Positions 5,586 through 60,423 are shown, counted from the first letter of the stretch. The stretch is DNA of 64,000 bases from a bacterium (GCA_030431455.1 JAUIJE010000005.1:124001-188000); one strand, 5' to 3'. Translations and numbers: made by a program. Notes: generated from the sequence alone by a model not told the origin.

Positions 5586-5609
5586 GACCGGCGCGGCAGG
5601 AGTTAGGGC

Positions 5610-6128: not shown

Positions 6129-6213
6129 TCGGGCCGTGTGCTCGCGTGTGCGACATGTCCCACCGGACTGTTGACGGATAAGACACCCGCGACGACTTTT
6201 TGCCCCGGGCGAT

Positions 6214-6236
6214 AAACCTCCCAGTACCGGAGGTTT
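6214..6236 (+). promoter_or_regulatory. Hairpin that buries the Shine-Dalgarno of the following gene; possible terminator/attenuator
   Basis: AAACCTCC (6214-6221) pairs perfectly with GGAGGTTT (6229-6236) around a 7-base loop. The right arm contains the GGAGG ribosome-binding site of the LysM gene starting at 6239, and is followed by more T residues (TTTTT overall at 6234-6238). It can therefore act as an intrinsic terminator for the upstream genes and as a structure that hides the ribosome-binding site. A TTGACG (about 6172-6177) upstream might serve as a -35. Confidence 0.5.
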
Positions 6237-6238
6237 TT

Positions 6239-7792
6239 ATGGTCAACAGCGTCGATCGCAGTCGCGCGCCCCTTCCCCGCCCCCAGAGCACGCCCGACGA
6301 GGCCACCCACACGGTCCGCGCCGGCGACACCATGAACTCGATCGCGCGCGCCAACCAGCTGCAGTTGCAGCAACTCATCGACGCCAACCCCCAGATCGCA
6401 GATCCGAACAAGATTCGGGTGGGCCAACAGGTCAACCTGCCGCAAGGCGCGCCCGCGACCAACGGGGCCACCGCGCCGGCCGACGCGGCCACCCCCACCA
6501 CCCCGACCGCCGACGCCCAGACCGTGCGTGAGGCCCGCGGCCGCGCGGTGAACAACGACGCCGCGATTCGCGCCCGCATCGAAGCGCAGGGCGCGCCGGT
6601 GGTCGAGGCGCAGCCGCTGACCTCGACCCGCACCCTGCGCCGCGGCGCGGAAGGGCCGGCGGTCTCCGAGCTCCAAGAACAGCTCAACGCGCGGGGCGCG
6701 CAGCTCGAGGTCGACGGGGACTACGGACCGCGGACCGAGCAAGCGGTGCGCGACTTTCAGACCCAGCAGGGCATCCGCTCCGACGGCGTGGTCGGGCCCA
6801 ACACCCGCGAAGCCTTCGCCGCCACCGCGGGCAACCCCGCGGCCCCGCCCGCGACCGATGCCCCTCCCGCGACGGACGCGCCGCCGGCCACCGACGCGCC
6901 CCCCGCCACCGACGGCACCGCGCCGGTCGACGACGCGGCCCCCACGTTGGGCAGCCGGGTGCTGGGCCAAGGTGACGAGGGCCCCGACGTCGAAGCGCTG
7001 CAAGGCCGGCTGAACAACCTGACCGACGCCGGCCTGCAACCGGACGGCGACTTCGGGCCGCGCACCCGCCGGGCGGTGGAGAGCTTCCAGCAACGCGCGG
7101 GCCTCGACCCCGATGGCATGGTTGGTCCAGATACATTGCGGGCGATGGACGAGGTGGAGGCCGGCACCCGCACGCTGTCCGAGGCCCCGTCCACGGTGCA
7201 GCCCGATGTGGGTCCGACCCGGCCCAATGGCCCACTGTCGCAGTCGGTCACCGTCGGGGACAACACGTTCAACGTGCACAACATGACCCGGCGCGACTTC
7301 GGCCGGACCAGTGTGCCCGGCAACCGCATCATCTCCCTCGACGCCAACTCCGCGAGCGGTCGCACCGGCGAAATCCTGCGGCCCCTCGTGGTCATTCCCG
7401 ACAACGCCACCCCGCAAGAGCGGGCCGCGGCGCAGCAGGCGGCGGACCGGATGGCCCAGTGGTTCGCCCAGAACGCGCCCAACGAAAACCGCGCCACCAC
7501 CGGTCTGGTGCGCACCACGTCGGAGAACGGGCGGGGGCTGCGCGGCTTTTACCACACCGAGTTTCACTCGGTGAACGACACCGACGCGGTGCGGCTCATC
7601 CGCGAAAATCCGCAAGAGTACGCGCGCATCATGGGAGAGACATTGGGTTCGATCCCCGGCGCGAACTTCATCGTGGCCCACGGCAACGTCAACTCGCGGG
7701 GCATCGAAGACCCCGGCGCGGTGGGCAACGATGGCACCACGGAGATCGGTCTCGGCCGGTTCGTGATCGAACAAGGCTTCAACCGGCTCTGA
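6239..7792 (+). CDS. LysM and double peptidoglycan-binding protein with unassigned C-terminal domain, no signal peptide
   Basis: A 517-residue protein. A LysM domain (residues about 23-68, HTVRAGDTMNSIARANQLQ) is followed by two PG_binding_1 modules (about 130-195 and 240-305, each with GPRT and DGxxGPxT motifs) separated by PPATDA repeats. A C-terminal domain from about 340 carries clustered polar residues (His439, Glu441 and His443 in FYHTEFHSVND; His481 in VAHGN) that could form a metal or catalytic site. I cannot assign this domain; an amidase or peptidase is plausible. There is no Sec or Tat signal, though both binding modules recognise cell wall, so export by a specialised system or release on lysis is implied. 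Start chosen from GGAGG at 6229-6233. Confidence 0.8.
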   Translation: MVNSVDRSRAPLPRPQSTPDEATHTVRAGDTMNSIARANQLQLQQLIDANPQIADPNKIRVGQQVNLPQGAPATNGATAPADAATPTTPTADAQTVREARGRAVNNDAAIRARIEAQGAPVVEAQPLTSTRTLRRGAEGPAVSELQEQLNARGAQLEVDGDYGPRTEQAVRDFQTQQGIRSDGVVGPNTREAFAATAGNPAAPPATDAPPATDAPPATDAPPATDGTAPVDDAAPTLGSRVLGQGDEGPDVEALQGRLNNLTDAGLQPDGDFGPRTRRAVESFQQRAGLDPDGMVGPDTLRAMDEVEAGTRTLSEAPSTVQPDVGPTRPNGPLSQSVTVGDNTFNVHNMTRRDFGRTSVPGNRIISLDANSASGRTGEILRPLVVIPDNATPQERAAAQQAADRMAQWFAQNAPNENRATTGLVRTTSENGRGLRGFYHTEFHSVNDTDAVRLIRENPQEYARIMGETLGSIPGANFIVAHGNVNSRGIEDPGAVGNDGTTEIGLGRFVIEQGFNRL

Positions 7793-7884
7793 TCCGCCCG
7801 GCCGCGCGCGGCCTCGACGGTGCGACGATTCCGGCGGTGGGCGCTGACCTTGTGATGGGTTAGGTTCACCGCCGGAGGTCTTTA

Positions 7885-8952
7885 ATGCGGACGTGGATGC
7901 TGTGTTTGGCATTGGTGTGGGGCACGACGTGGCCGGTGGCGGTCGGTTGCACCGGCGGCGACGGGGATGGCGACGGGGATGGAGATGGCGACGGTGACGG
8001 GGATGGAGATGGCGACGGGGATGGCGACGGCGACGGCGACGGTGGAGATGGAGATGGAGATGGAGACGGAGATGGCGACGGGGATGGGGACGTAGAAGCC
8101 CACAAGGCGGCCACGGTGAAGGCCTACCTCGCGCCGCAGGTGGCCAACGACGCAGGCGAAAACGCGATGGTCATCGCCATCACCGCGGTGGTCGAGGCGA
8201 GCGTACAAGCCAACGGCGGCGTCGAGCTGGTGACCACCGGGACCTTGACCGAACAGGGCGCGGCTTTTGTGTACAGCGCCGGGCCCAACGACCGGCTGGT
8301 GATCGACTGGGCCGCGGGCGCTGACACGGAGATCTTCGTGACCACCCTCGACGGGTATTTCGAGGCCGAGACGGTCGAAGAGTTCTTGAGCGAGCCGCAC
8401 GACGTCAACCTGCGGTACGTGCGCAGCGGCGAAGGGGACGCCACGGTCACGTCATCGGAAAACGGTGCCGATCGGTCGGCGTCCATCTCCGGTGACTTGG
8501 TCATCGACGGGCAGAGCTACACGGTCAACCTGACGAAGTCGGGCTCGTACACCTACGACCACGGGGGCAACGGCCACTCCTACGAGAGCACCGAGACCAT
8601 GGCCGGCACCGTGACCGGGCCGGACTTTTCACTGGTCGCGGTCGAGGAGTTTTGGGCGTTCACCTCGGTGTTCGGCCAGGTGGTGACCAACCGCATCCGC
8701 GAGGGGAGCACCGCCTTCACCGCGGGCGGCACCGACTATGTGTTCGACGGCCTGTACATCAAAGAGCAGACCATCGACGGCTTCGCCGACGACACCACCG
8801 GCTACTGGGATGTCTCCGGGGACGTGCTCGTCGGGGGCGCGCCGGTCGGGTCCTTGGCGTTGTCGGTCAACGACGTCACGAGCGACGTGGTCTTTGTGAG
8901 CAACAACGGCGACCAAACCGTGCTCGAGAGCACCAACAACCCGCAGGACTGA
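7885..8952 (+). CDS. GD-repeat lipoprotein
   Basis: A 355-residue protein with a lipoprotein signal ending at Cys22 (WPVAVGC). A Gly-Asp repeat follows to about residue 69, then a beta-rich globular region with no family I recognise (for example SISGDLVIDGQSYTVNL). The poly-GD segment is highly acidic and probably a flexible, calcium-binding spacer that holds the domain away from the membrane. GGAGGT lies 8 bases before the start. Its neighbours on both sides are peptidoglycan-active proteins. Similar GD spacers occur in two other genes in this window (21338-22350 and 35368-37305). Confidence 0.75.
   Translation: MRTWMLCLALVWGTTWPVAVGCTGGDGDGDGDGDGDGDGDGDGDGDGDGDGDGGDGDGDGDGDGDGDGDVEAHKAATVKAYLAPQVANDAGENAMVIAITAVVEASVQANGGVELVTTGTLTEQGAAFVYSAGPNDRLVIDWAAGADTEIFVTTLDGYFEAETVEEFLSEPHDVNLRYVRSGEGDATVTSSENGADRSASISGDLVIDGQSYTVNLTKSGSYTYDHGGNGHSYESTETMAGTVTGPDFSLVAVEEFWAFTSVFGQVVTNRIREGSTAFTAGGTDYVFDGLYIKEQTIDGFADDTTGYWDVSGDVLVGGAPVGSLALSVNDVTSDVVFVSNNGDQTVLESTNNPQD
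7957..8091 (+). repeat. GGNGAY hexanucleotide tract encoding (Gly-Asp)n
   Basis: A low-complexity array of GGC/GGG/GGA + GAC/GAT codon pairs lies in frame in the lipoprotein gene. The third-base pattern is irregular, so the repeat is conserved at protein level more than at DNA level, but it could still change length by slippage in 6-base steps. Confidence 0.9.
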
Positions 8953-45593: not shown

Positions 45594-47141
45594 ATGACCA
45601 TCGTGCTCGACGGCGCTTCGCTCCACCCCGCCGCGGTCGAGGCCGTGGCCTCGGCCGGACGCGCCGTTGAAATCGCCCCCGCGGTGCACGCCCGCATGGA
45701 GTCCGCGCGCCGGCTCGTCGACGAGATCGCCGCCGGCGACGACCCCGTGTACGGCATCAACACCGGCTTCGGCGCGCTCGCCGAGGTCAAGGTCGAGCGC
45801 GACAAGGTCGAAATCCTCCAGCGCAATCTCATTCTGTCCCACGCCGTGGGCGTGGGCGAACCTCTGCCCTTCGCCACCGCCCGCGCGTTGATGCTCCTGC
45901 GGGCCAACACCCTGGCGGTGGGCCACTCCGGTTGTCGCCCGGTCGTGCTCTCGCACCTGGTGGGCTTGCTCAACGCCGGCATCGCCCCCTACGTCCCCTG
46001 CAAAGGCAGCGTGGGCGCCTCGGGGGACCTCGCCCCCCTCGCCCACGTGGCGTTGCTCCTCATCGGTGAAGGCCCCGCTTACATCGACGACACCCTCACC
46101 ACCGCCAAACGCGCCCTCGCCCACGCCGGCCTCGCCCCCCTCGTGCTCCAGGCCAAAGAGGGCCTCGCCCTCATCAACGGCACCCAAGCCATGGTCGCGT
46201 CCGGCACCCGCTCGCTGCTCGTGGCCGAAGAGCTCACCCGCCTCGCCGACATCGTGGGCGCGCTCTCCCTCGACGCGCTCAAGGGCACCGACCGCGCCTT
46301 CGACCGGCGCATCCACGACGCCCGCCCCCACCCCGGCCAGTCGACCTGCGCGGCCAACCTGCGCGCGCTCCTCGACGGGAGCGAGCTGCTCAAGAGCCAC
46401 GCCGACTGCGGCAAGGTGCAAGATCCCTATTCATTGCGCTGCATGCCCCAAGTGCACGGCGCCACCCGCGACGGGCTCGCCTACGTGCGCTCCGTGCTCG
46501 AACGTGAACTCAACGCCGCCACCGACAACCCCTTGGTGTTCCTCGACGGGGACAGCGGCATGAGCGGGCACGACGTCATCTCGGGGGGCAATTTCCACGG
46601 CCAGCCCGTGGCCCTGGCCCTCGACTTCCTCGCCATCTGCACCGCCGAGCTCGCCAACATCAGCGAACGCCGCATCGAGCAGCTCGTGAACCCCGCGCTC
46701 TCGTCGGGCCTGCCCGCGTTTTTGTCCCCCGACCCGGGGCTGAACTCCGGTTTTATGATTCTGCAAGTGACCGCAGCGAGCCTCATCAACGAGAACAAGG
46801 TGCTCTGCCACCCCGCGAGCACCGACTCGATCCCCTCGTCGGCCAACCGCGAAGACCACGTGTCCATGGGCATGACCGCGGCCAACAAAGCCTGGAACGT
46901 CGTCTACAACGTGCGCCGGGTGCTCGGCATCGAGCTGCTCTGCGCCGCCCAGGCCGTCGACCTGCGCGAAGGGGTCAAGCCCGGGCCCGCGCTCTGCGCG
47001 GTGCACGCCGAGGTGCGCAAACACGTGCCCTTCGCGCCCTGCGACCGGGCGTTCATCGACGACCTCGAGGCGATCGAGATGTTCTGCGCCGAGGGCCGGC
47101 CCGAACAGGTCGTGCGCGACGCCGGCCTCGCCCTCGCCTGA
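45594..47141 (+). CDS. hutH: Histidine ammonia-lyase
   Basis: A 515-residue MIO-dependent ammonia-lyase. The MIO cofactor forms from Ala142-Ser143-Gly144 in [14 protein letters not shown]. Tyr53 (VYGINTGFG), His83 ([11 protein letters not shown]), [15 protein letters not shown] and [17 protein letters not shown] are all as in canonical HutH, which deaminates histidine to urocanate. The ribosome-binding site is GAGGAGG at 45583-45589. It is not next to hutU or hutI, but is convergent with egtD-egtB, whose product also derives from histidine. That placement is odd and is discussed among the findings. Confidence 0.93.
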
Positions 47142-47152
47142 GCGCAGGGGCG

Positions 47153-48088
47153 CTACGTCGCGGTCAAGAGCTGAACGGAAAAGTCCTGCCCGGGGTCGGT
47201 CCAGACCTGCTCGACGGAGAAGTTCCCTTGTTCGGCCAGCGCGGCGAAGCCTTCGAGCGAATATTTGTGCGAGTACTCGGTGTGGACGCGCTCGCCCTTT
47301 TCGAAATCGAACCGCTTGCCCCGGAAGGTCAGAGACTGCGCGCGGTTCGACACGAGGTAGATGTCGATGCGCTCTTCGTCCTCGTTGAACTCCGCGTGGT
47401 GATCGAACCCGTCGAGGTCAAAATCGGTGCCGAGCGCGCGGTTGGCGTGGGCGAGGATGTTTTTGGAAAAGGCCGCGGTCACGCCCTCGGGATCGTCGTA
47501 GGCAAGCTCGAGCCGGGCGCGGTCTTTGAGCAGGTCCACCCCCACGAGCAGGTTGCCGCCCTGGCCCACGAGCTCGGCCCAGCCGCGCATGAGTTGGGCG
47601 GCGTGGCCGCGCTCGAAGTTGCCGATGGTCGAGCCCGGGAAATAGACCGCGGTGCGCGCAAACGGCACCCCGATGTCGGGGAGCTTGAGCGGCTTGGTGA
47701 AGTCCCCGGTGGCCGGACACACCCGCAGGCCGGGCAGGTCTTGGCGGAGTTTTTTCACCGAAGACGCGAGGTGCTCGTCGGAGATGTCGATGGGAATGTA
47801 CGCGGCCACGTCGTCCATCGCCGCGAGCAATCGCCGGGTCTTGAGCCCGCTGCCCGCGCCAAACTCGACCAGGCGACAGCGCGGCCCCAGGGCCTGGGCC
47901 ATGTCCGCGACGTGATCTTGCATGATCGCAAGCTCGGTGCGGGTCAGATAGTACGCGTCGAGCTCGGTGATCTTGTCGAACAGCTTCGAGCCTTCCTCGT
48001 CGTACAAAAACTGCGTGGGCAGCCACTTTTTGTCTTCGGACAGGCCCTCGACCACGAGGCGGGCGAACAGGTCATTGAGGTCGGTCAT
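47153..48088 (-). CDS. egtD: L-histidine N(alpha)-methyltransferase EgtD
   Basis: A 311-residue SAM-dependent methyltransferase of the EgtD family. It trimethylates histidine to hercynine, the first step of ergothioneine biosynthesis. LPTQFLYDEEGSKLFDKITELDAYYLTRTE is characteristic of the N-terminal domain (cited by parts: LPTQFLYDEEGS, ITELDAYYLTRTE). The SAM site is VEFGAGSGLKTRRLL and D(I)SDEHL; PGSTIGNF is a further family motif. The start overlaps the egtB stop by four bases. The start ATG lies at 48088. Confidence 0.93.
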   Translation of the reverse strand: MTDLNDLFARLVVEGLSEDKKWLPTQFLYDEEGSKLFDKITELDAYYLTRTELAIMQDHVADMAQALGPRCRLVEFGAGSGLKTRRLLAAMDDVAAYIPIDISDEHLASSVKKLRQDLPGLRVCPATGDFTKPLKLPDIGVPFARTAVYFPGSTIGNFERGHAAQLMRGWAELVGQGGNLLVGVDLLKDRARLELAYDDPEGVTAAFSKNILAHANRALGTDFDLDGFDHHAEFNEDEERIDIYLVSNRAQSLTFRGKRFDFEKGERVHTEYSHKYSLEGFAALAEQGNFSVEQVWTDPGQDFSVQLLTAT

Positions 48089-49317
48089 GCGTCTTTCGCC
48101 ATTCGAATGGTGGTGAACTGCCAGCGCGCGGAGGGCGCAAAAAAGTTGCGGTAGGTGGCGCGCACGTGTCCGGGGGGCGTGGCCACCGAGCCCCCGCGCA
48201 AGACCATTTGCCCGCTCATGAACTTGCCGTTGTATTCGCCCACCGCGCCCGGCGCGGGGGCAAACCGTGGATAGCCAAGGTAGGCGCTCTGGGTCCAGGC
48301 CCAGCCATTGCCGAACAGCCCCGCGTCCTGTTCGCCGGTGAGCACCGGATGCAAGACCTCACGATCCGCGTACCGGCCCTTTACGATGTCGGCGCCCTGG
48401 GCCGCGTGCTCCCACTCGAACTCGGTGGGCAACCGGGCGCCGGCAAACCGCGCGTACGCGTCCGCCTCGTAGTGGCTCACGTGGGTGACGGGGGCGTCCA
48501 TGTCGAGGGGCCAGAGCCCGTGCAGGGTGAACTCAAACCACGCCCCGTCCCGCTGCTCCCAATAGAGCGGGGCGTGCAGCTTGCGGTCTTGCACAAAGGC
48601 CCAGCCGTCGCTCAACCAATGAACCGGGTCCTGGTAGCCCGCGGCCTCGACAAAGGCGAGGTATTCGCCACAGGTCACGGGCCGGTCGGCGATGGCGAAC
48701 GGCTCGATGTGCACCCGGTGGCGCGGCCCCTCGTTGTCGAACGCAAAACCGGCCCCGTCGTGGCCCACATCGATGAGCCCCCCGTCAAACTGTGTATAGC
48801 CAAGGGGGCGCGGCTTTGACGTAGGGCGCGCCAGAGGCTTGTACGCCGGCTGGAGCGCGTTTTTGCTCAGCGCGTGTTTGACGTCGGTGAGCAGCAGCTC
48901 TTGGTGCTGCTGCTCGTGGTGCAGCCCGAGGGTGACGAGCTCGTGTTCGCGGTCGGTCAGGCCCTGTGCGATCGCCGCGCGCAGCTTCTCGTCCACGTGC
49001 GCCCGGTAGGCCAGGACCTCGTCGAGGGACGGCCGGGACAAAAGCCCGCGCTCGGCCCGCACCTGACGCGGGCCCACCGTTTCGTAATAGCTGTTGAACA
49101 GGTACCCGTACCCGGGGTGAAAGGGCGCGTCGTCCCCGCGGGGCAACAGCACGAAGGTCTCGAAAAACCAAGTGGTGTGCGCGAGGTGCCACTTGGTGGG
49201 GCTCGCGTCGGGCATGGACTGGATTTGACAGTCCTCGGGCGACAACGGGGCCGCGAGCGCGCGCGTCGCCCCGCGCACGTCGTCGTACCTGGCCAAAAGT
49301 GACGACCCCGCACCCAT
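48085..49317 (-). CDS. egtB: Ergothioneine biosynthesis protein EgtB (iron sulfoxide synthase)
   Basis: A 410-residue protein: a DinB-like helical domain (iron ligands in HTTWFFE, His47, and the HxxxH of HHEQQHQELL) and a C-terminal formylglycine-generating-enzyme-like domain (GRFAIADRPV-type region, RLPTEFEWEHAA, LRGGSVATPP, RATYRNFF). It joins hercynine and cysteine or gamma-glutamylcysteine to a sulfoxide using iron and oxygen. The ATG at 49317 with AAGGTG upstream is chosen over one at 49350. It forms a two-gene operon with egtD; egtC/E are absent here. Confidence 0.9.
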   Translation of the reverse strand: MGAGSSLLARYDDVRGATRALAAPLSPEDCQIQSMPDASPTKWHLAHTTWFFETFVLLPRGDDAPFHPGYGYLFNSYYETVGPRQVRAERGLLSRPSLDEVLAYRAHVDEKLRAAIAQGLTDREHELVTLGLHHEQQHQELLLTDVKHALSKNALQPAYKPLARPTSKPRPLGYTQFDGGLIDVGHDGAGFAFDNEGPRHRVHIEPFAIADRPVTCGEYLAFVEAAGYQDPVHWLSDGWAFVQDRKLHAPLYWEQRDGAWFEFTLHGLWPLDMDAPVTHVSHYEADAYARFAGARLPTEFEWEHAAQGADIVKGRYADREVLHPVLTGEQDAGLFGNGWAWTQSAYLGYPRFAPAPGAVGEYNGKFMSGQMVLRGGSVATPPGHVRATYRNFFAPSARWQFTTIRMAKDA

Positions 49318-49378: not shown

Positions 49379-50404
49379 TCAGACCGCGCGGGCCCGCGCG
49401 GATTGTCCCCTCAAATCGCGGACGGTGTCGCGCAGCGTGGCCATCGGGTCGCGGGGCGCGAAACCCAGCTCGGCCGTCGCTTTGCGCGCGTCCACGTACC
49501 AGTAGTGGCCGGCCATGTCCGCCTCGGTGGTGGACAGCGCGGGCTCGGCCCCGACCGCTTTGGCCACCTGCCCGAGCACGCTCACCCCGAGCTTGGCGAA
49601 GCGGCGCGGCACCTTGATCGGCACCAGCGGGCCTTTGACCCCGGAGATTTCGCTCAGCCGCTCGAAGAACTGCCCGAAGGTGAGGTTGATGGCCGAGAGC
49701 AAATACTCACTGCCCGGCTTGGCCTCCTCAAGGGCGGTGACGGTGGCCGCGGCCACGTCGCGCACGTCGACGAACGAAAGACCCCCCTCGGGGGTGATGG
49801 GCAGCTCCCGTTTCAAAAAACGTTCGACATCGGCGGTGCTCGAGCGGCGGTCGTCGCCGGGGCCGAGCACCAAGGTCGGGCGCAGGGTGATGAGCGCCAT
49901 GCGCTCCCGCTGCTCGGCGGGGGCCAGGCGCAACGCGTCCTCGAGGGCGCGGTCGGCGAAATGTTTGGACAGGTAGTAGCCCCAGCCGCAGATGGTGTCG
50001 AACGCGACGGGGTCGTCTTCGCGGTAGACCATCTTGGGATCGGTGCCGACACATTTGGTGCCCGACGTCGACACATGCACAAACCGCGTGACCTTGGCGG
50101 CCAAACAGGCCTCAGCCAAAAGCCGGGTCCCGTGCACATGCACCTGCATCATACGGCCGCGGTCGCGCTCGTCCCGGGAGACGAACCCGGCCGCGTGCAC
50201 CACCGCGTCGATGCCGTCCACCGCGCGGGCGACGTCGTCTTTGCTGGTCACATCCCCGCGCACAATCTCGACCCCGAGGGAGCGCAGGTCCTTGTCATCG
50301 CTGCGGCACAGAGCGCGCACGGCGTAGCCTTGGTCGCGCAGCGCCTCGGCCACGTGGCGGCCCAAAAAGCCGGTGGCCCCGGTGAGCAGTACATGCGGTT
50401 TCAT
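49379..50404 (-). CDS. NAD(P)-dependent extended SDR (epimerase/3-beta-HSD-like)
   Basis: A 341-residue protein with the Rossmann motif TGATGFLG (8-15) and the active-site pair Tyr143-Lys147 (GYYLSKHF). The later part (SEYLLSAINLTFGQFFERLSEISG; short motifs NLTFGQFF and FVDVRDVA) resembles extended SDRs acting on sterols, lipids or dihydroflavonols. It is the last gene of the minus-strand lipid operon, 40 bases after the four-domain fusion. The substrate is probably a lipid or acyl alcohol, by context only. Start ATG at 50404. Confidence 0.8.
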   Translation of the reverse strand: MKPHVLLTGATGFLGRHVAEALRDQGYAVRALCRSDDKDLRSLGVEIVRGDVTSKDDVARAVDGIDAVVHAAGFVSRDERDRGRMMQVHVHGTRLLAEACLAAKVTRFVHVSTSGTKCVGTDPKMVYREDDPVAFDTICGWGYYLSKHFADRALEDALRLAPAEQRERMALITLRPTLVLGPGDDRRSSTADVERFLKRELPITPEGGLSFVDVRDVAAATVTALEEAKPGSEYLLSAINLTFGQFFERLSEISGVKGPLVPIKVPRRFAKLGVSVLGQVAKAVGAEPALSTTEADMAGHYWYVDARKATAELGFAPRDPMATLRDTVRDLRGQSARARAV

Positions 50405-50444
50405 TGGCCGCTCCTCGTCACAAAATCGTTCACAAAGGGCCCGG

Positions 50445-53400
50445 TCACAGGTTGAACACCGAGACGAAGCTCATGAGCAGCTCGGGGTCATTGGTCTTGA
50501 CCGTGCCATCCAAAAACTCGCTCACCTGCGGGATGTAATGTTCCTTCACGATCCGCGTGAACATCTTCACGTCGGTCTTCATCACGCAGTCGGCCTGTCC
50601 GTCGGGCTTGTCATTGAAGATGGCGCAGCCGTCCTTTTTGATCTCCACCGTCCACTTCGTCTCCGGGCCAGCCCCAAGCGAGAAGTAGTAGCGCAGCTCC
50701 TGTTTGACCTCGTCGGCGCGGAACCGCCCTTGCAGCTCGTCGAACAAAATCGCCAGCGGGTTGTTGTCCTCGCCGTTGTCGCTCGAGGCTTCGAGCAGGC
50801 CGAGCGCTTGTTGGGTCGCGGTGTGTTGATCGAACCGTTTGCCGTCGCGCAACGACTCGACCGCCCCCTGCACCACCTCGGCGGCGCGGGCGCAAGCCAT
50901 GGACATGCGCAGCCCCGCGGCGCGGGTGTCGTCGAGCAGCTTCTTGCTGTCGATCTTGGCCCCGATGTGCACGGTGACATTGCGGTTCTTTGGAAACGGC
51001 GCGCCGCGCGGCATCGAGCGGTAGGTGCCCTCGAGGTACACCGGCAAAATGTCCACCCCGTGCTTGAGCGCGAGGTAGGTCACCGCGGCGCGGAATTCGC
51101 CGAGCTCGCCCGTGCGGGTGCGTGTGCCCTCGGGGAAGATGAGCACGGTGTGGCCTTGGCCGAGCAGCTCGCTCGCCTCGCGCATGGTCTCGCGCGGCGA
51201 GTCCCCGCGGTCGAACGGGCGCAGGTTGGTGAAGTTCTCGAAATAGAACCGCCGCCACTTGCCCTCGAAGAAGTAGTCCTTGGCCGCGAGGGTCACGATG
51301 TCGTCGCCGTACGCGCCGAGCGAGGTCTTGACCAACCCCATGTCGAGATGGCTCGCGTGGTTGGCGACCACAATCGTTTGTTGGTTGTGCGGAATGTTGC
51401 TCTCGCCGAGCACCTCCACGTCGAGTGCGCGGTCGTAGAACGCCTTTTGTACGCCAGTGAGCGCGCCCTTCACCATCTGCTGGACCGTGCGCGGCACCGC
51501 GCCCGCGTCGGCCGGGCCGTCGAAGCCGGGCGCGGTGAGGCGCGCCTTGGGCAGGTCTTTTTGTGCGGCCCGGGGCGCGAGGACCTCGTCGGGCAAACGG
51601 GCCGCGTCTTTTTTCGGCACGCTCGCGGCCACCAAGTGGGCGATGACCGCTTGGCGCTGAATCGTGCCGTCGGGGTGGCGCGCCAGCCGCTTGTCGGTCA
51701 GTTCGATGTTTTCAGGTCTTTCGAAACGAGCCAGCCCGCGCACCACCGGCCGCAGCTTGCGGCGCAACAACCCGTGGTCGGTCTCGTCGGTGACGACCAG
51801 GCCCGCGACCCGCTCGCCCCCCTGCCCGTCGGGGATGCCCACGATGGCCGCCTCGATGACGCCCTCGACTTTGCCCAGGCTCTCCTCGATGGCGCGGGGG
51901 AACACCCGCCGGCCGTCCTTGGTGTGGATGACCTCTTCGGCCCGCGCCACCACCGTGACCCGGCCGTGCTTGTCTTTGCGGCCGAGGTCGCCGGTGTTCA
52001 GCCACCCGTCGGGGCTGAGCGCGCCGTCGTCGTCGTCGCTCACCCCGAGCAGGGCCGAGCTGCCCCGCGCGTAGATTTCGCCGATGCCGTCGTCGCCCAC
52101 GTTCTGCACGTCGACCTCGACCCCGGGCACGGTCTGGCCGCCCTTGCCCGGCTTGCCGAGGGTGAGCACCTGCCCGCCGTCGAGGCCGTAGCTCTGGTGA
52201 AGCTGAATGCCGAGATTGGAAAAGAGGTTGGCGGTGCTCTTGTCGACGTGGGCGCCGGTGGACACCAAAAAGCGCACCTTGCCCCCGAGCCGCTCGTGCA
52301 CCGGCCGGAACAAGACCCGCCCGAGGTTGACCCCGAGGGCTTTGCCCAACGTGCGGTTCAAGAACATGCCCGCCTCGAACGCGGTCTCCGCGAACGGCCC
52401 CGCTTTCTCGAGCTCGTCCGCGATCATCTTCTCGAGGTCTTGCCACACCTGGGGCACGCCGATCATCGCGGTGATGCCCGCTTTGGCGAAGGCTTCGCCG
52501 AGCTGCTCTTCGGTCACGTCGTCGACGTAAGTGACGCGCGCGCCACGCAGAAGCGGCAACAGCAGGCCACAGGTGAGCTCAAACGCGTGATGCAGGGGCA
52601 TGACGGAAAGGCCACTGTCGCGCCGGCGCAACTTGAACAGCGGGGCCACGCTCGCGAGCACGGTGGTGAAGTTCAGGTGGGTCATCTCCACCGTCGAGAG
52701 CTGCTCGTCGGTGGAGCGAAACACGATCGCGGCCGGGGTATTGGGCGAGACCAACACCTCGGGCACGTCGACCCGCGCGCCCGCGGGCGGCACCTCGGTG
52801 AACTCGAGCAGGTCAAAGGCCGCGATCTCCCCCGCCCCGTCGATGGCGGGGCCGAGCAGGACCTTGTCCGCGCCCACGTGTTGCAGGCGGTGTTCGATCT
52901 CGTCCTCGTCGAGGCCGGGGTCGAGCGGCACCACCGTGGCCCCGGCGAACAGCACCCCGAAAAAGCCCACCGCCCACTCTGGACGGTTTTTGGCCACCAA
53001 GCCCACCTTGTCCCCGGGGTGCACCCCCGAGTCCGCGAGACGCGACGCGCACATTTGCGCGCCCCGCAAAAGGTCACGGTAGCTGAGCTTTTGGAGGTCT
53101 TCTTGGCCGTCCACCAACCGCTGCAGCGCGGTGCGGTTGCCCTCGCGGAGGCAAATCTCGTCGAGGAAACTGCACAGGTCCGAGAAGCGCTCCTCGGCCC
53201 TCGGGCGTTTGGTGAGCTTGGCCTCGAGGTGGGGGAACACCCACTTGCGCAGGCCGACGATGTGCACGTCTTGCCAGTAGGTGCGCCAGTCAAGTTCGCT
53301 CGGGGTGAACGGGAGTTTTTGTTTGTCCTCGTCGGACGCCCGCCGGTAGGCCGCGCGCGTGTTGTCGCACCGGAAGCGGTAGTTGTAGAGGCTGGTGAAG

Positions 53401-54947
53401 GGAATGAACGCCTGCATCACCATGTCCGAGCCGGACACCTGGCGTTCGATTTGGGCCAAGGTGCCCTCGCTGCTTTTGGCCACGCCCGCGAGGGGCGTGC
53501 CCTTGAGCGCGCCCATGCCCGCTTTGACGAGGGAGAGGGCCTTTTTCATGCCCGGCGCGCTGATTTGGGCATAGCGCTCGGGGCTGACGGGGATGGGTTC
53601 GATCTTGCCGTACAGGCGATTGAGCAAGGGGTTGCCGCGGTTGCGCGACTTCATGAACCGGCGTTTGTAGAGGCCGGTGAGCTCGATGAGGCGGTTCATC
53701 GTGAACGCGTTGCTGTCGCTGGTGCCGAACTGGTACACCATCTGCGCTTTGCCCTCGAGGAGCTCGGCGAGGGCGAGCACGGTGCCGAAACACACGTGGT
53801 CGACGGGCACGACGTCGAGCACGTGCCCGTCGCGGGTCGGGTACTGCACTTGGCCGTGCAGGGCCATGTAGACCAGCGGGGCCGAGGTGTTGATGCCCTC
53901 GTTCCACCCGGGCACGGGGAACGACAGGGAGCTTTCCACCACCGCGGGCCGCACGATGCAAAACGGAATGCCCGCGTCGCACAGAAGCTGCTCGCCCACG
54001 GACTTGGTGTACGTGTACGAGTTCGGCCAACCCCAACGCGCGGCCCGGCGGGTGCCGGCCTCGACGAGCTTTTTGTCGATGAACCGTTTCTGTTCTTTGG
54101 CCATGGCGTTGTCGAGCACCTCGCCCCGGGTGGGCTCGCCTCGACGCTGCAGCTTCTGTTTGGCCTCTTGTTCGAACAGCGCCTGGTTCTGCGGGTCGGA
54201 CGCTTGGCTCTTGATGAACTCTGCCTCGCGCAGGCCCTCTTCGAGTTCGCGGCGCGGGTCCCAATGTTCGGTCCCGAGCTTCTCGGCTTTGGGGAACGGG
54301 ACAAGCCGCGGGTCCTCTTCGCGCACGACCCCGGTGCGCTCGCCGGCCACGTAACAGGTCGAGGTGTGGAGCAGCGGAATCGCTTGGCCGTCTTTGCCGA
54401 GCGCGCGGCACAGCTCGACGAGGTTGAGCACGCCCTCGGCGTTGACGTGAAACGCTTCGTCAATGGCGGGGGTGAAGCTGACCACCCCCGCGACGTTGAG
54501 CACCGCGTCCACGCCCTCTTTTTGCAGCTCGGCCAGGGTCTCGTCGTTGACGCCCCCCCGCGGGGCGGTCACGTCCCCGGCGATGGGAGTCAGGTGCTGG
54601 TCGATCCAAATCTTGGCTTCGAACTCGTTTTTGCCCTCGCGCACGGGGTCGTAGCAGGGGGATGGCCATTGCTCTTGGAAGAACCGCTCGAGGGGGGTGA
54701 GCCCCGCCTTTTTGCGCACCATCAAATAGATGTGGCCCAACTCTGGATAGCGGGTGAGCAACAGCGAGACGAGCACCTTGCCCAAAAAGCCCGTGCCCCC
54801 GACGATGACCACGCGTTTGCCCTTGAGCTGCGCGGCGACATCGAGCACGTCCCCGTCGGACACCGGCGCGTCGAGGGGCGTGCCCTCGGGAATGCGCGGG
54901 CGCGGCCGGTGGGTCCGGCCTTCGGAATCGAAACGTTTGCCGGTCAT
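50445..54947 (-). CDS. Four-domain fusion: fatty acyl reductase, AMP-binding-like, PlsC acyltransferase, SCP2
   Basis: A 1500-residue protein. (1) A fatty-acyl-CoA-reductase-type SDR (about 40-610) has VGGTGFLG at 49-56 and YTYTK near 309. (2) An AMP-binding (ANL) domain (about 630-1150) keeps [12 protein letters not shown], but its P-loop is degenerate: [11 protein letters not shown] stands where SGTTGxPKG is expected, and no A10 lysine is visible (DGTIQRQ). (3) A PlsC acyltransferase (about 1170-1390) has NHASHLD (HX4D) and [11 protein letters not shown]. (4) An SCP2-type lipid-binding domain ends the protein (about 1400-1500). It is ATGA-coupled to the LarA-like gene. The set suggests making and acylating a fatty alcohol or ether lipid, comparable in spirit to ElbD of Myxococcus. 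Confidence 0.85.
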
Positions 54948-56599
54948 GCCGCGGCCCCTGCCCCCGACGTTCCGGTCCCCGACGAGCCGGCCCCGGAGGT
55001 CTGGGCGATTTGCGCGTCGGCCTCGACGTCGCACATCAAGATCGGCGGGGTGTGCAGCATGGTGATCTGCGGCGACCGGGGCGCGGTGTCGTAGGCCATC
55101 TCGAGGGCCTCTTGCACGTTGGCCGCCGGCTCGTAGCCGAACAGTTCGCACATGTAGTCGTCCTGGGCCCCGGCCACGATGACGCGCCCGATGTGTTGGC
55201 GCCCGGCCTCGCCCCAGTACCACATGAAGAACGGGTGAGAGCCGTGGTAGGCGTGCCCGTGGCGGTACATCTCGATGTAGGTCGGGTCCTCGGCGAACGC
55301 CCGCTCGTACTTCTTGTGCAATGTGTATGCGTCTTTGGTCTCGGGCAGCAGGCGATGCACAAACTCGATGTAGGGCGCGTGGTGCACGGGGTCGAACTTG
55401 TCTTTGAACGGGTGGGCGATGATCAACGTGCCGCCCTTCTTGAGCAGCGGCGCTCCCCGGTAAAGGTTGTGGTAGTAGCCCTGGGCCATGACCTGGACGA
55501 GCAAGGGGTTCAGGTAGCTGTGCACATTATACGGACAGACGAAGGCGAGGCCGCTCAGGAGAATGTCGGCCTGGCCTTTGACCGGGACCATGTATTGCTC
55601 GTAGCTCTTTTGCAGCACCTTCTCGTGCACCGCTTCGGTCTCGCCCGCCCACACCCCGGTGAGTTCGTAGTGGGCCGGTGACGCGTAAAAGAGCGCCTGG
55701 CGCGCGTCGTCGGGCAGACGGTCGAGGGTGGCCTTGAGGCCGCGCATCTTGGTCCACTCGAAGTCGCTCATGTCCTCTTCGCGCTTGGTGAGGAAATCGA
55801 GCTGACCGTCGAACATCTTGTTGTTGATGGTGGTCTCGATCTGAAAGACCTTGACCTCTTTTTGCAGCATCCGGCCTTGGCGCCAGATGGACTCGTGCAG
55901 GCCGTGGCTCGCAGGGTCCATGTAGGACTCTTTCGAGCTCATCACCTTGGGGTTGTGGTGGGCGCGCAGGGCTTTGTAGCCGCAGAGCCCGACCGCGACG
56001 GACTTGTGGCCGCCGCTCATGGGCACGAGGTTCATGCTCACGTAGATGAGCAAATCGCTCTCTGCCGCGCGGCGGTTGCAGTCCACCGCCTCGCCGCGAT
56101 CGGTCTCGCCGATGTCGACCATGTTGTCTTTGTCTTCGGCGTCGTGGTTGTACAAGCGGTCGGGCCAATACTGGTTGAACACCTTATCGCCCACCACCCA
56201 TTTGATTTCGTCCGCGGTCATGCGGCGGTGCACGCTGAGCGCGGCGATGAGGTGGATGTCGTCCACCCCGTGGTCGTCGAGGATCTCGAGCACGATTTCG
56301 ATCACCCGCTGGCGGATGTCGGGGCGCTTCATGGGGGGAAGCGGAATCGAGATGTCGTCGAACGCGATGGTCACCTTCATGCCCGGCTTGAGCATGGCGT
56401 GCAGCGGATCGCTGTTCTCGGGGTGATTCAGGGCATAGCGAATGGCCGCGTCCGGATCCTTGAGCCCGACGAGGGGCGGCTTGGCATAGATGCAGCGGGT
56501 CCCCACCGGGAGGTGTTCGAACAGGATCTGGTCGCCGCTCATCAGGTAGCGGGGCAGGCTGTCGGAATCGAGGGTGTGCACGGTGCTGGAGGAAGACAT
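54944..56599 (-). CDS. LarA-like (DUF2088, nickel-pincer racemase family) protein
   Basis: A 551-residue protein matching the LarA/DUF2088 superfamily: [10 protein letters not shown] (Asp81-Asp82, in the place of the LarA DxTRP motif), SVHRRMT (His124), then [10 protein letters not shown] with Lys199 where LarA carries its pincer cofactor lysine, and HH at 214-215. The His that precedes this lysine by 10 residues in LarA seems to be Met189. LarA proteins racemise or epimerise 2-hydroxy acids with a nickel-pincer nucleotide made by LarB, C and E, which are not in view. It is embedded in the lipid operon, directly before the fusion enzyme. The C-terminus is Gly/Ala/Ser-rich. Confidence 0.8.
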
Positions 56600-57523
56600 T
56601 CAGCGTCTCTTTCGCAGGAAGGACAAAGGGAAGAGAAACAAGGCCGCGAGCCCCTCGACGGGGAGGTCGCGGGTGCCGGGCTGGGGGGATGCCACCGGTT
56701 CGGCGCAGCCGATGAACGGCGCGCCGCCGTTGCCTGCGGTCCCGCAGCCGGCGGGAGGACAGCCGGCGGGGGTCGCGGCCAGGGTGAGGTGTACCTCGGA
56801 GGACGGGCCAGCCTGTCCGTCGAGGTTGACGAACCACAACTCCACGTCGACGGCGGTGGCCCGGTCGACGGCGGCCACGGGGAACGCGATCGCAGGACCG
56901 CGTTCCATCTCTGTGGTCGGGCTCGTGGCCCGGGCCAACCGGGCGAGCCCGGTCTCGGGGTCGGCAAACCTCGCCACGACCTCAGGCCGCCATTGCTCGT
57001 CGGCCGGGGCCTCATAGTCCACCCGCACCCAGCGGCGCGGGTTGACCGCGAACTGGGGGTCGTCGTTGAACTGCTCGAACTGCTCGTGACAAAACTCGAG
57101 ATTGGGCGGGATGTCGACCTCCACCGCGCCGGTGATCGTCGGCCGGGCGGGGACGGACGCCGCCACCGCGGGGTCGACCACAAACGTGCCCACCGCGTCG
57201 GTGCACTCGACACACCCACGAAAACCCCGCTGCACGCTGTAGGTGCCCGCGGGCAAACCCGACGGGGCCCGGAGCACAAAGCCTGGCTCGTCGACGGTGA
57301 CCAGGCTGAACACCTCGCCTTGCTCATCGACCGCGGCCATGGACTCGCCCTGCAACCGGGTCGGCCAAGAAAAGCGCACCTCGGGGGTGGGACCGACCAC
57401 CTGGGACGCGGTGGGGGCGAGGGTGTGGGCAAAGTCCACCCGGACGCACTCCGCCCGCGCCGGGGCCGCGCCGCCGGCGAGCGCGCACAGCAGAACACCG
57501 AGCCGGGCCCGGGCCGCGCTCAT
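56600..57523 (-). CDS. Secreted protein with C-terminal sorting-like helix
   Basis: A 307-residue protein: signal peptide (MSAARARLGVLLCALAGGAAPARA), two or three beta-sandwich-like regions (RFSWPTRLQGES, TYSVQRGF, VELWFVNLDGQAG), Cys pairs (GFRGCVECTD; PAGCPPAGCG), and a C-terminus with a hydrophobic helix followed by RKRR (GLAALFLFPLSFLRKRR). That tail resembles MYXO-CTERM-type or other protein-sorting tags, though the classic Cys position is uncertain. It is co-transcribed with the HAD phosphatase (ATGA overlap at 57520-57523) and abuts the LarA-like start. Confidence 0.7.
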   Translation of the reverse strand: MSAARARLGVLLCALAGGAAPARAECVRVDFAHTLAPTASQVVGPTPEVRFSWPTRLQGESMAAVDEQGEVFSLVTVDEPGFVLRAPSGLPAGTYSVQRGFRGCVECTDAVGTFVVDPAVAASVPARPTITGAVEVDIPPNLEFCHEQFEQFNDDPQFAVNPRRWVRVDYEAPADEQWRPEVVARFADPETGLARLARATSPTTEMERGPAIAFPVAAVDRATAVDVELWFVNLDGQAGPSSEVHLTLAATPAGCPPAGCGTAGNGGAPFIGCAEPVASPQPGTRDLPVEGLAALFLFPLSFLRKRR

Positions 57524-58194
57524 GCCGCTTTGCCCTTGCGCCAGTCGAGCACCGGCCAGCGGTGGGTGGTGGCCATGGCCTTGAGCCGCACGTCGGGGTT
57601 GACCGCGCAGGGCCGCCCGACGACGGTGAGCATGGGCACATCCGACAATGAGTCTGAGTAGGCCGCGCACTCCTCGAGGTCAAAGCCGTGCTGCTTGGCG
57701 TGGGCCTTGATGAGGCGCGCCTTTTCGGGTCCCGCCACCAGGGGGCGCTTGATGCGCCCGGTGGCTTTGCCGTCTTTGAACTCCAGGCGGTTGCCGATGA
57801 CGTCGTCGGCTTCACAAAGCTTTTGCAATCGCTGGAGCAAAAAATCCGGGCTGCCCGAGATGAGAACCACCCGGTGCCCGGCGGCCTTGGCCCGGGCCAC
57901 GAGGCTGAGCCCCTCTTTGTACAGGCCGGGGCGAATCACGGTGGAGAACGCTTCGTCGGCGAGCTCGAGCAGGCGGTCTTCGGTCATGCCCGCGTAGCCC
58001 TCGAACAACAGCTCGTTGAACGAGCCGCGGTCGAGCTGCTCGGCCAACAGCAGGCGCGGCGCGCGGGCCGCGGTCTTGAACAGGTGGCCCACCGAGCGCA
58101 GGGGGTTTTGCTGGTTCATCGCGTAGAACAGCAGGGGGTGGACCAGGTTGGTCCGGGTCAGGGTTCCGTCGACGTCAAAATAGCTCGCGGGCAT
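57520..58194 (-). CDS. HAD-IB family phosphatase (SerB-like)
   Basis: A 224-residue HAD hydrolase. The nucleophile motif is FDVDGTLT (Asp7, Asp9); motif II is VVLISGSPDF; motif III Lys lies in GPEKARLI; motif IV is YSDSLSDVPML. The helical cap in LFKTAARAPRLLLAEQ fits subfamily IB (phosphoserine-phosphatase-like); relatives often sit beside PlsC acyltransferases in lipid pathways. The ATG at 58194 is preferred over a TTG at 58200. It heads the five-gene minus-strand operon; the upstream gap holds a possible TTATTC-type -10. Confidence 0.88.
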   Translation of the reverse strand: MPASYFDVDGTLTRTNLVHPLLFYAMNQQNPLRSVGHLFKTAARAPRLLLAEQLDRGSFNELLFEGYAGMTEDRLLELADEAFSTVIRPGLYKEGLSLVARAKAAGHRVVLISGSPDFLLQRLQKLCEADDVIGNRLEFKDGKATGRIKRPLVAGPEKARLIKAHAKQHGFDLEECAAYSDSLSDVPMLTVVGRPCAVNPDVRLKAMATTHRWPVLDWRKGKAA

Positions 58195-58419
58195 GGTCAA
58201 ACCTCGTGCGCCGAATAACCGACACGGGGGCTGAGAGCGAGGGCCATTCGACGAGAAAGTCGCGGTTGGTCGTCGGAGAAGTGCGAAAAAGTTTGCTCAC
58301 CTGACGCCCCGCCCCGCGCGGCTCGGTGTGCCGGCCCCCAGAATCACAGGCCCAGAAATTGGCGCGCCCCGGCGCAGGCAGGTACCGTCTTCGGGCACGT
58401 GGGGCCAAAGGGGGCCAAG
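58195..58419. promoter_or_regulatory. Divergent intergenic region
   Basis: This 225-base region lies between the HAD phosphatase (minus) and the AMIN protein (plus). It has no open frame with coding character. An AT-rich patch, GAAAAAGTTTGCTCA (58287-58301), lies in the middle. Reading the minus strand, GGTTATTCGG near 58210-58220 could serve as a -10 for the lipid operon. No clear palindrome seen. Confidence 0.3.
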
Positions 58420-60423
58420 ATGGGCCTGATGACTGCTAAGCATATGAAAACAAAGCGGATTCCGCCTGGCTCAGACACCGCGGCGGCGGTCGGTTTTGGT
58501 TTGCTCGCCCTGGCCCTGGCCGGCCCCGTGTTCGCGGGGCCGGTGACGGTGGCGGTCAATGAAGACGATCAGCTCGCGGTGATCGTGGAGGTCCAGGGCG
58601 ACAAGGCCCCGACCTTCCAGGTGGTGGAGACCAAGGCCGGTCCTGTCATCGAGCTGCCCGGCAGCGACCTCCCCGCGCCCCCGAAGATCAAGCGGCCGGC
58701 CGGGGTCGTGTTCGAGAACATGAAGTTCGTGCGGCACGGCAACACCCCGGGGGTGGCGGTGTCGCTGTACGCGGAGACCGACTTCGATGCCCACGTCGAG
58801 GGCAACACCCTGCGCGTGGTGTTCACCCCGATCGAGTCCCGGGACCGGCTGCTGCAAGCCCAAGTCGACCGGCGCGAAAAAGCCAAGGCCAACGAGAAGG
58901 CCGCGCGCTTGGCCGCGGCGGAAAAGGCGCGGCAGGAGGAGGAAGCCCGCGCCAAAAAAGCGGCCGAACAAAAGCGGCTCGTCGAGCTCGCGCGTCAACG
59001 GGAAGAAGCCGCGCGCGCGCAACAAAAAGCCCTCGAGGAAAAACGCAAGCAAGAGCAAGAGGCCAAACGGCTGGCCGCGCTCAAGCGCAAACAAGAAGAG
59101 GAAGCCAAACAAAAGGCCCTCGAGGAGCAACGCCGGCGTGAAGCCGAAGCCAAGCGCCTCGCCGCGCTCAAGCGCAAACAAGAAGAGGAAGCCAAACAAA
59201 AGGCCCTCGAGGAGCAGCGTCGACGCGAAGCGGAGGCCAAGCGACTCGCCGCGCTCAAGCGCAAACAAGAAGAGGAAGCCAAACAAAAGGCCCTCGAGGA
59301 GCAACGCCGGCGTGAAGCCGAGGCCAAGCGCCTCGCCGAGCTCAAGCGCAAACAAGAAGAGGAAGCCAAACAAAAAGCTCTCGAGGAGCAACGCCGGCGC
59401 GAAGCCGAGGCCAAGCGCCTCGCCGAGCTCAAGCGACAAGAGGAAGAGGCCAAACAAAAAGCCCTCGAGGAGCAACGCCGGCGTGAAGCCGAGGCCAAGC
59501 GACTCGCCGAGCTCAAGCGCAAACAAGAAGAAGAAGCCAAACGGTTGGCCGAGCTCAAGCGCAAACAAGAAGAGGAAGCCAAACGATTGGCTGAGCTCAA
59601 GCGACAAGAAGAACAGGCCAAACAAAAGGCCCTCGAGGAGCAACGCCGGCGCGAAGCCGAGGCCAAGCGACTCGCCGAGCTCAAGCGCAAACAAGAAGAA
59701 GAAGCCAAACGATTGGCCGAGCTCAAGCGCAAACAAGAAGAGGAAGCCAAACGATTGGCTGAGCTCAAGCGACAAGAGGAACAGGCCAAACAAAAGGCCC
59801 TCGAGGAGCAACGTCGGCGCGAAGCAGAGGCCAAGCGGCTCGCCGCCCAAAGGCGCGCGCAGGAAGAAGCCGCGATTCGCCGTCAAGAGACATTGCGCCA
59901 GCAGGAACAAGCCCGGCAAGCCGAACCCCAGCGGATCGCGATGGCCAAAACCGCGCCCGCCGCCCGCGGCTTTGGCGGGACGCCCATCGGCAACCAAAGC
60001 GTGGAGCTGACCCCAAAAGCCCCCTCCCCCTACGTGCTCGCCAGCGCGCCGATGCGCGAAGACGACTACTTCGGGGGCGATGCCTACCTCGACGAGCCCA
60101 AAGGGCTGCTGCGCCACATCACCGTCGAGCGCGCGGGCAAACACCGTTCGAAAGTGGGCGTGCAGGTCGAAGGGGGGGCGAAGTTTTTCGTGAAAAAAGG
60201 CGCGGGCAAGACGGTGGTGCTCACCTTGTACGACACCGGCGCGGCCAACCTGAACGTCCGGCGCATCCTCGACGCGTCCCGGCTGCAGACCAGCGTGGTC
60301 CGGGTCAAGCCGCACATCGTGGAGGACAACGCCCGCCGGGTGGAGCTGCACATCGAGCTGCGCGAGCCCGCCCCGGTCCAGATCGAACAGGACGAAAAGA
60401 CCCTCTGGCTGCACATCGGCTGA
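58420..60423 (+). CDS. AMIN-domain protein with long repeat coiled coil
   Basis: About 667 residues: signal peptide (hydrophobic VGFGLLALALAGPVFAG), an AMIN-like domain (about 45-140, with LAVIVEVQGD and FENMKFVRHG), then a charged coiled coil of about 330 residues. The latter is made of 29-residue units (KRLAALKRKQEEEAKQKALE plus EQRRREAEA) and shorter variants. A second AMIN-like domain closes the protein (about 560-667, LRHITVERAGKHRSKVGV, LTLYDTGAANLNVRRI). AMIN domains bind peptidoglycan or sort envelope proteins, so the helix may span or measure the periplasm. Starts at 58429 and 58444 are also possible; 58420 has GGGGG at good spacing. Confidence 0.75.
   Translation: MGLMTAKHMKTKRIPPGSDTAAAVGFGLLALALAGPVFAGPVTVAVNEDDQLAVIVEVQGDKAPTFQVVETKAGPVIELPGSDLPAPPKIKRPAGVVFENMKFVRHGNTPGVAVSLYAETDFDAHVEGNTLRVVFTPIESRDRLLQAQVDRREKAKANEKAARLAAAEKARQEEEARAKKAAEQKRLVELARQREEAARAQQKALEEKRKQEQEAKRLAALKRKQEEEAKQKALEEQRRREAEAKRLAALKRKQEEEAKQKALEEQRRREAEAKRLAALKRKQEEEAKQKALEEQRRREAEAKRLAELKRKQEEEAKQKALEEQRRREAEAKRLAELKRQEEEAKQKALEEQRRREAEAKRLAELKRKQEEEAKRLAELKRKQEEEAKRLAELKRQEEQAKQKALEEQRRREAEAKRLAELKRKQEEEAKRLAELKRKQEEEAKRLAELKRQEEQAKQKALEEQRRREAEAKRLAAQRRAQEEAAIRRQETLRQQEQARQAEPQRIAMAKTAPAARGFGGTPIGNQSVELTPKAPSPYVLASAPMREDDYFGGDAYLDEPKGLLRHITVERAGKHRSKVGVQVEGGAKFFVKKGAGKTVVLTLYDTGAANLNVRRILDASRLQTSVVRVKPHIVEDNARRVELHIELREPAPVQIEQDEKTLWLHIG
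59065..59840 (+). repeat. Coding tandem repeats, 87-bp unit and truncated variants
   Basis: Repeated units encode AKRLAxLKRKQEEEAKQKAL and EEQRRREAE. Unit length is 87 bases for the full form; shorter units lack the KQKALEEQRRREAE part. Copies are nearly identical at DNA level, including third bases (for example GGCCAAACAAAAGGCCCTCG), showing recent expansion or conversion. Confidence 0.85.

Follow-up and report, generated by a model that had tools for sequence, protein, structure and literature searches.

What does a five-gene operon make when its largest product joins reductase, ligase-like, acyltransferase and SCP2-like parts in one 1500-residue chain, and which of its genes share in the pathway? 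The operon lies at 49379-58194 of a 64,000-nucleotide stretch of bacterial DNA (GCA_030431455.1 JAUIJE010000005.1:124001-188000), which is called the window below. An initial annotation, made from this sequence alone, had suggested a pathway for a fatty alcohol, wax or ether-linked lipid with a surface component.

Layout of the operon and its counterpart in Myxococcus

Each of the five genes has an open frame on the minus strand at the coordinates in Table 1, and the DNA bears out the nearly gapless junctions that had been described. ATGA overlaps link the HAD gene with the secreted-protein gene (57520-57523) and the LarA-like gene with the fusion (54944-54947), the TGA of the secreted-protein gene is followed without a gap by the ATG of the LarA-like gene (56600/56599), and 40 bases with a GAGGAG box before the SDR start separate the fusion stop from the SDR ATG.

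Table 1. Genes of the operon and domains of its fusion protein, with window coordinates and supporting evidence
Feature	Coordinates	Strand	Evidence
elbB-like HAD-IB family phosphatase	57520..58194	-	TIGR01490 135 bits, cut-off 98; 42% identity to Myxococcus HAD at equivalent place
Predicted secreted protein, Cys/hydrophobic/RKRR tail	56600..57523	-	Sequence reading; Pfam/NCBIfam blank
elbC, LarA-superfamily (nickel-pincer nucleotide) enzyme	54944..56599	-	NF052592 805 bits, cut-off 740; invariant residues; LarA alignment; fold match 9q3k
elbD, 1500-residue FAR - probably dead ligase - PlsC acyltransferase - SCP2 fusion without ACP	50445..54947	-	
elbD FAR domain, residues 48-571	53235..54806	-	Rossmann and YxxxK motifs intact
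elbD ligase (AMP-binding) domain, residues 599-1086	51690..53153	-	A3 (52665-52733) and A5 (52167-52199) destroyed
elbD PlsC-type acyltransferase domain, residues 1177-1305	51033..51419	-	HX4D and EGTR intact
elbD SCP2-like domain, residues 1396-1500	50448..50762	-	Pfam tail score, predicted fold
elbE-like extended SDR (NAD epimerase/dehydratase family)	49379..50404	-	PF01370 111 bits; 41% identity to Myxococcus SDR downstream of elbD

The ergothioneine genes egtB and egtD (47153-49317, minus strand) come next after the SDR gene and could be co-transcribed with the operon, being on the same strand and only about 60 bases away. The histidine ammonia-lyase gene hutH (45594-47141, plus strand) converges on egtD, and two histidine-consuming routes adjoin there.

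The elb operon of Myxococcus xanthus (MIBiG BGC0000871; PMC9426513) was originally described by Lorenzen et al. 2014, as reviewed in PMC9131029. It consists of elbA (NAD epimerase family), elbB (HAD), elbC with no assigned function, elbD and elbE (NAD epimerase family), and ElbD contains FAR (fatty acyl reductase), ACS, ACP and AGPAT-like domains. Ether lipids are strongly lowered by disruption of elbD and lowered too by disruption of elbE, while insertions in elbA have no effect (PMC9131029). Clusters of this kind have previously been published from Acidobacteria and sponge symbionts.

For comparison, we used three Myxococcus loci, L024, L038 and L047 (Myxococcus sp. CA023, whose ElbC matches that of L024 exactly), and took M. 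xanthus elb from its published description. All three loci have the order SDR-HAD-LarA-ElbD-SDR, and the identity between window and L024 proteins is 42% for B, 53% for C, 36-43% for D and 41% for E. Because both gene order and identities match, we read the window as elbB-insert-elbC-elbD-elbE, with the single insertion falling between B and C. No elbA was found at the locus: the upstream neighbour of the HAD gene is on the opposite strand (58399-60423, plus) and diverges from elbB. The product of this neighbour, 674 aa in length, contains an extended K/E/A/R repeat region and has no NCBIfam match. The absence of elbA is not counted as defining, since elbA is dispensable for ether lipids in M. 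xanthus (PMC9131029).

Conservation was counted over 88 dereplicated loci, many Acidobacteriota included, where the denominators are the loci with enough flank. The HAD gene stands just upstream of ElbC in 65 of 76 loci, an FAR is found downstream in 49 of 63, and ligase and acyltransferase are both found there in 47 of 63. The full elbB-C-D-E block is present in 40/57 loci, from Myxococcota and Acidobacteriota. The tabulation of neighbours thus upholds the proposed pathway for the HAD, LarA-like, fusion and SDR genes and leaves out the fifth. The secreted protein has no family match in Pfam or NCBIfam, and no relative was found among four order-mates of the window genome or among 40 Myxococcota loci, which rules out a conserved role and takes the surface component out of the pathway. 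As judged from these comparisons, its gene is a lineage-specific local insertion outside the conserved operon.

Two acidobacterial loci, L121 (LarA 4399-5956, FAR 6115-7660, SDR 7710-8682) and L125, are minimal, with HAD-LarA-FAR-SDR on the stretch read. Ligase and acyltransferase look dispensable there, because only these four are kept, and the set may represent the pathway's core.

The ether-lipid reading and the ElbD precedent, for which the initial annotation could not confirm the domain order, are borne out by an identical order of FAR, ACS and AT and by the HAD/ElbC/ElbD/SDR synteny shared with Myxococcus. The assignment to alkyl-ether lipid synthesis is well supported. That the locus is a divergent elb-type operon for alkyl-ether glycerolipids, working by the scheme proposed in the last section, we consider likely from its sequence. 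The kind of operon is already known; what goes beyond the initial annotation is the place of ElbC in the LarA superfamily, its pairing with ElbD and the rebuilt ElbD.

ElbC and its pairing with ElbD

According to a review of the field, how myxobacteria convert fatty acid to alkyl ether is not known, and ElbC is listed there without known function (PMC9131029). The family that it matches in NCBIfam, NF052592, is named the hydroxyacid isomerase family (LarAH14/15/16). In the profile alignment, H124, K199 and H215 of ElbC correspond to H108, K184 and H200 of LarA; all three are invariant in a 22-sequence ElbC alignment from Myxococcota and Acidobacteriota, and across 39 Myxococcota sequences they vary hardly or not at all. 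D81, at the position of LarA Asp72, is also invariant, and Ser84 occupies the position of R75, a binder of the cofactor phosphate in LarA. The alignments have no His at the LarA H174 position, where a nearly invariant Asn190 is found instead, offset by one residue. The AlphaFold model (pLDDT 86.8) has the single-His LarA 9q3k as its best fold match (TM 0.75/0.85). By residues and predicted fold, ElbC belongs to the LarA (nickel-pincer nucleotide, NPN) superfamily and keeps the cofactor-anchoring residues.

ElbC shares with NF052592 and with the single-His enzymes 9q3k/9q3j the fold, the NPN-anchoring Lys, the His nickel ligand and the first catalytic His, and like 9q3k/9q3j it has lost the second catalytic His and has Asn in its place. 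The structures of the two enzymes have been described with the reaction left open (PMC12611868). ElbC differs from them in its low identity (about 20% to 9q3k), in the Ser at the R75 position and in its setting, an operon with a fatty acyl reductase and not sugar genes. It was suggested earlier that a different hydride reaction may be catalysed by LarA groups without H174 (PMC7583248). We did not accept the LarAH15 of PMC11770544, an oomycete gluconate epimerase, as a relative of ElbC, since the enzyme numbering need not match the NF052592 group numbers. Two loci carry LarA-like paralogues of about 31% identity without elb neighbours (L034, 8462-10162, and L042, 8513-10123, both minus strand), and the alignment with ElbC did not match up at their cofactor Lys and His positions.

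Co-occurrence was evaluated in 195 Myxococcota genomes. ElbC was counted in 138 of them, 130 over the NF052592 cut-off and 8 as strong contig-edge or fragmentary matches, and an ElbD-type FAR was likewise found in 138. Both are present in 137 genomes and neither in 56; one genome has ElbC only (G071) and one FAR only (G014), the latter being a 619-aa reductase without ligase. Fisher's p for the pairing is 8.5e-47, a value that ignores relatedness and is a guide only. The absences of both agree within families too (genera g39 and g41 of family f14, G022 of f13 and G153 of f18), and the pairing persists where the genes are unlinked, for example in L005, L007, L025 and L036. In a sample of 119 Acidobacteriota genomes, all 10 that bear ElbC have a matching FAR; six further genomes have an FAR match without ElbC, three of them with ElbD-like proteins of 1450-1490 aa at about 30% identity. 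By these counts, the pairing of ElbC with ElbD is almost one to one. That a LarA-type enzyme is all but confined to genomes with ElbD, in Myxococcota and Acidobacteriota alike, suggests that ether-lipid synthesis includes a nickel-pincer step. Eight strongly reduced genomes from the order of the window genome (G173-G180; 0.3-1.8 Mb compared with 7.7 Mb) have neither ElbC nor ElbD.

For the cofactor, the window genome encodes LarC, LarE and LarB, with LarB adjoining LarE. LarC is present in 134 of the 138 ElbC-bearing Myxococcota genomes and in 9/10 of the Acidobacteriota, and four of the Myxococcota genomes gave no good LarC match (G020, G055, G107 and G147). One of the four, G055 (loci L019 and L134; 95% complete), has ElbC and an ElbD with ACP and SCP2, with no good match to LarC or LarB.

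ElbC may instead be a 2-hydroxy-acid racemase or epimerase that inverts the configuration of a precursor or head group (glycerate, a hydroxy fatty acid or a sugar acid) and takes no part in the ether bond. All assayed LarA relatives do isomerise 2-hydroxy acids (PMC7583248, PMC11770544), as the NCBIfam label of the ElbC family would have it, but the H174 that the two-histidine mechanism needs (PMC12611868) is absent from every ElbC read, with the nearly invariant Asn in its place, and ElbC tracks the fatty acyl reductase and not hydroxy-acid genes. We regard such a racemase as a real but minority possibility.

Domains and history of the rebuilt ElbD

Pfam finds in ElbD the reductase, AMP-binding and PlsC parts that had been read from the sequence (NAD_binding_4 at 48-386, AMP-binding at 599-966, AMP-binding_C at 1020-1086 and a PlsC-type acyltransferase at 1177-1305), and a Sterile match at 510-571 falls below the cut-off. 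The SCP2 part is supported by a sub-cut-off score together with a predicted fold: the tail alone scores 19.9 bits, just below the cut-off of 21.3, and its AlphaFold model (pLDDT 86.8) has PDB SCP2 domains among its best matches. Its fold resembles the SCP2 domains of the alkylsulfatase SdsA1 (Foldseek E 2.6e-6) and human SCP-2L (5.7e-5); unlike these, it is fused to a reductase-acyltransferase, and the identity is about 20% or less. Known SCP2 proteins have a pocket for aliphatic chains. The fusion is a genuine single gene, since 75 homologous ElbD proteins from other assemblies have the identical FAR-ACS-AT order in one frame; an assembly join of separate genes, raised earlier as a possible refutation, is thereby ruled out.

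An SCP2 tail is fused to ElbD in only 8 of the 195 Myxococcota genomes. Pfam gives no PP-binding (ACP) match in the window ElbD or in the order-mate L006, and finds one in L024 and L020. In a midpoint-rooted tree built from FAR plus acyltransferase, the SCP2-bearing rows are on one side of a fully supported branch (100/99), and inside this side the window and three order-mates form an ACP-less clade (100/100). ElbD proteins with both ACP and SCP2 also exist (G011, G055 and G056). As the tree nests the window with ACP-bearing relatives, we read the ACP absence as a secondary loss, and the likely order of events is that SCP2 was gained and ACP lost later. The SCP2-first polarity is likely and not proven, because the tree is midpoint-rooted and three SCP2 rows are long-branched.

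In the ligase domain of the window, A3 (TSGTTGxPKG) is replaced by ten other residues and A5 has lost the TE of YGLTE. The loss of both is confined to the window among 76 ElbD proteins, and the three order-mates (L006, L136 and L137) keep GTTG and TE. No other reading frame of the window DNA restores the motifs, which rules out hidden frameshifts. The A10 lysine was not used as proof of a dead ligase, since some Myxococcus ElbD proteins also have Ser there. The Pfam AMP-binding score decreases from 279 (Myxococcus) through 219 (L006) to 153 (window). With its ATP-binding motifs destroyed, the window ElbD probably cannot activate a fatty acid, a role that the initial annotation had given to the fusion. 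The domain seems to be kept as a scaffold, because it is still 56-58% identical to those of the sisters.

The product would be a wax ester, a free fatty alcohol or some different reduced lipid if the synteny is shared and the chemistry diverged when ligase and ACP were lost. An FAR and an acyltransferase could in principle yield wax esters, ligase and ACP activities were seen with isolated ElbD but none was measured for FAR or acyltransferase (PMC9131029), and the elbD-like gene of Pontiella is not matched by ether lipids (PMC11868695). However, the acyltransferase is PlsC-type with glycerophosphate motifs and not WS/DGAT, disruption of elbD in M. xanthus removes ether lipids (PMC9131029), and the HAD, ElbC and ElbE are all retained. 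We consider such a product unlikely; given the elb synteny, wax or fatty alcohol, both of which had been proposed, is less likely than an ether lipid. That the window ElbD is decaying and its operon heading for loss is very unlikely: the motif loss is unique to it and its identity to the sisters drops more in the ligase (72-76% among the sisters themselves) than in the acyltransferase (67-68% compared with 72-80% among them), but ElbD retains its 1500-codon frame, SCP2 tail and intact FAR and acyltransferase motifs, ElbC retains its invariant residues, the genes are closely packed, the cofactor genes are kept, and the FAR has moved no further from the outgroup L020 than that of the sisters (46.7% identity compared with 45.4-46.3%).

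A proposed route and its relation to known systems

For the alkyl-ether reading, we propose the following scheme. The window ElbD, being without ligase and ACP, must draw acyl-CoA or acyl-ACP from elsewhere in the cell, and this thioester made in trans would be its substrate. The FAR domain would reduce one acyl chain to the aldehyde or alcohol, and the PlsC domain would acylate glycerol-3-phosphate or the alkyl derivative of it. The modelled SCP2 tail may hold the chain between sites, replacing the lost ACP. From their families, the HAD-IB enzyme (ElbB) would remove a phosphate and the SDR (ElbE) would carry out a redox step.

The least certain step is that of ElbC, which might perform an NPN hydride transfer on a glycerolipid or aldehyde intermediate. 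As one option, it would transiently oxidise the glycerol C2 carbinol, C1 would then exchange acyl for alkoxide, and ElbE and ElbB would reduce or dephosphorylate an intermediate; the nickel hydride shuttle would thus do what AGPS does from acyl-DHAP. A speculative proposal, to which we give a low probability, is that ElbC fills the gap in the elb pathway by forming the ether bond or enabling its formation, through a hidden hydride transfer on a glycerolipid and without hydroxy-acid isomerisation. As no CarF/PF10520 match was found in the window genome, while three of the seven genomes searched have one, a plain alkyl ether is expected, and a plasmalogen (vinyl ether) is unlikely as the end product.

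If ElbC does form or enable the ether bond, the nickel-pincer cofactor would have a new chemistry and bacteria another ether-lipid route beside AGPS and the anaerobic ester-reducing enzymes. An NPN role for ElbC would also give a function to the LarA groups without the second histidine (PMC7583248, PMC12611868). The window ElbD is a natural experiment, separating retained parts (reductase, acyltransferase and ElbC) from dispensable ones (ligase and carrier). In the literature searched, we found no assay of ElbC, no publication linking LarA/DUF2088 proteins to elb and no description of an SCP2-bearing, ACP-less, ligase-dead ElbD; subscription papers and the ElbD original (Nat Chem Biol 2014) were outside the search, so priority for the LarA-elb link and the variant ElbD is not certain.

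When compared with elbABCDE of M. xanthus, the window has the same order of HAD, ElbC, ElbD and SDR, the same ElbD order and the same FAR and acyltransferase motifs. It differs in its lack of elbA, in the secreted gene between elbB and elbC and in a genome without CarF, while its ElbD differs in having no ACP, an SCP2-like tail and destroyed ligase motifs. The AGPS pathway of M. xanthus (MXAN_1674-1676) is alike in that an FAR1-like reductase, an acyltransferase and an NAD epimerase family protein are combined for ether lipids (PMC9131029). Unlike elb, that three-gene operon has no LarA-type gene, and its ether bond is made by a flavin enzyme, an AGPS homologue.
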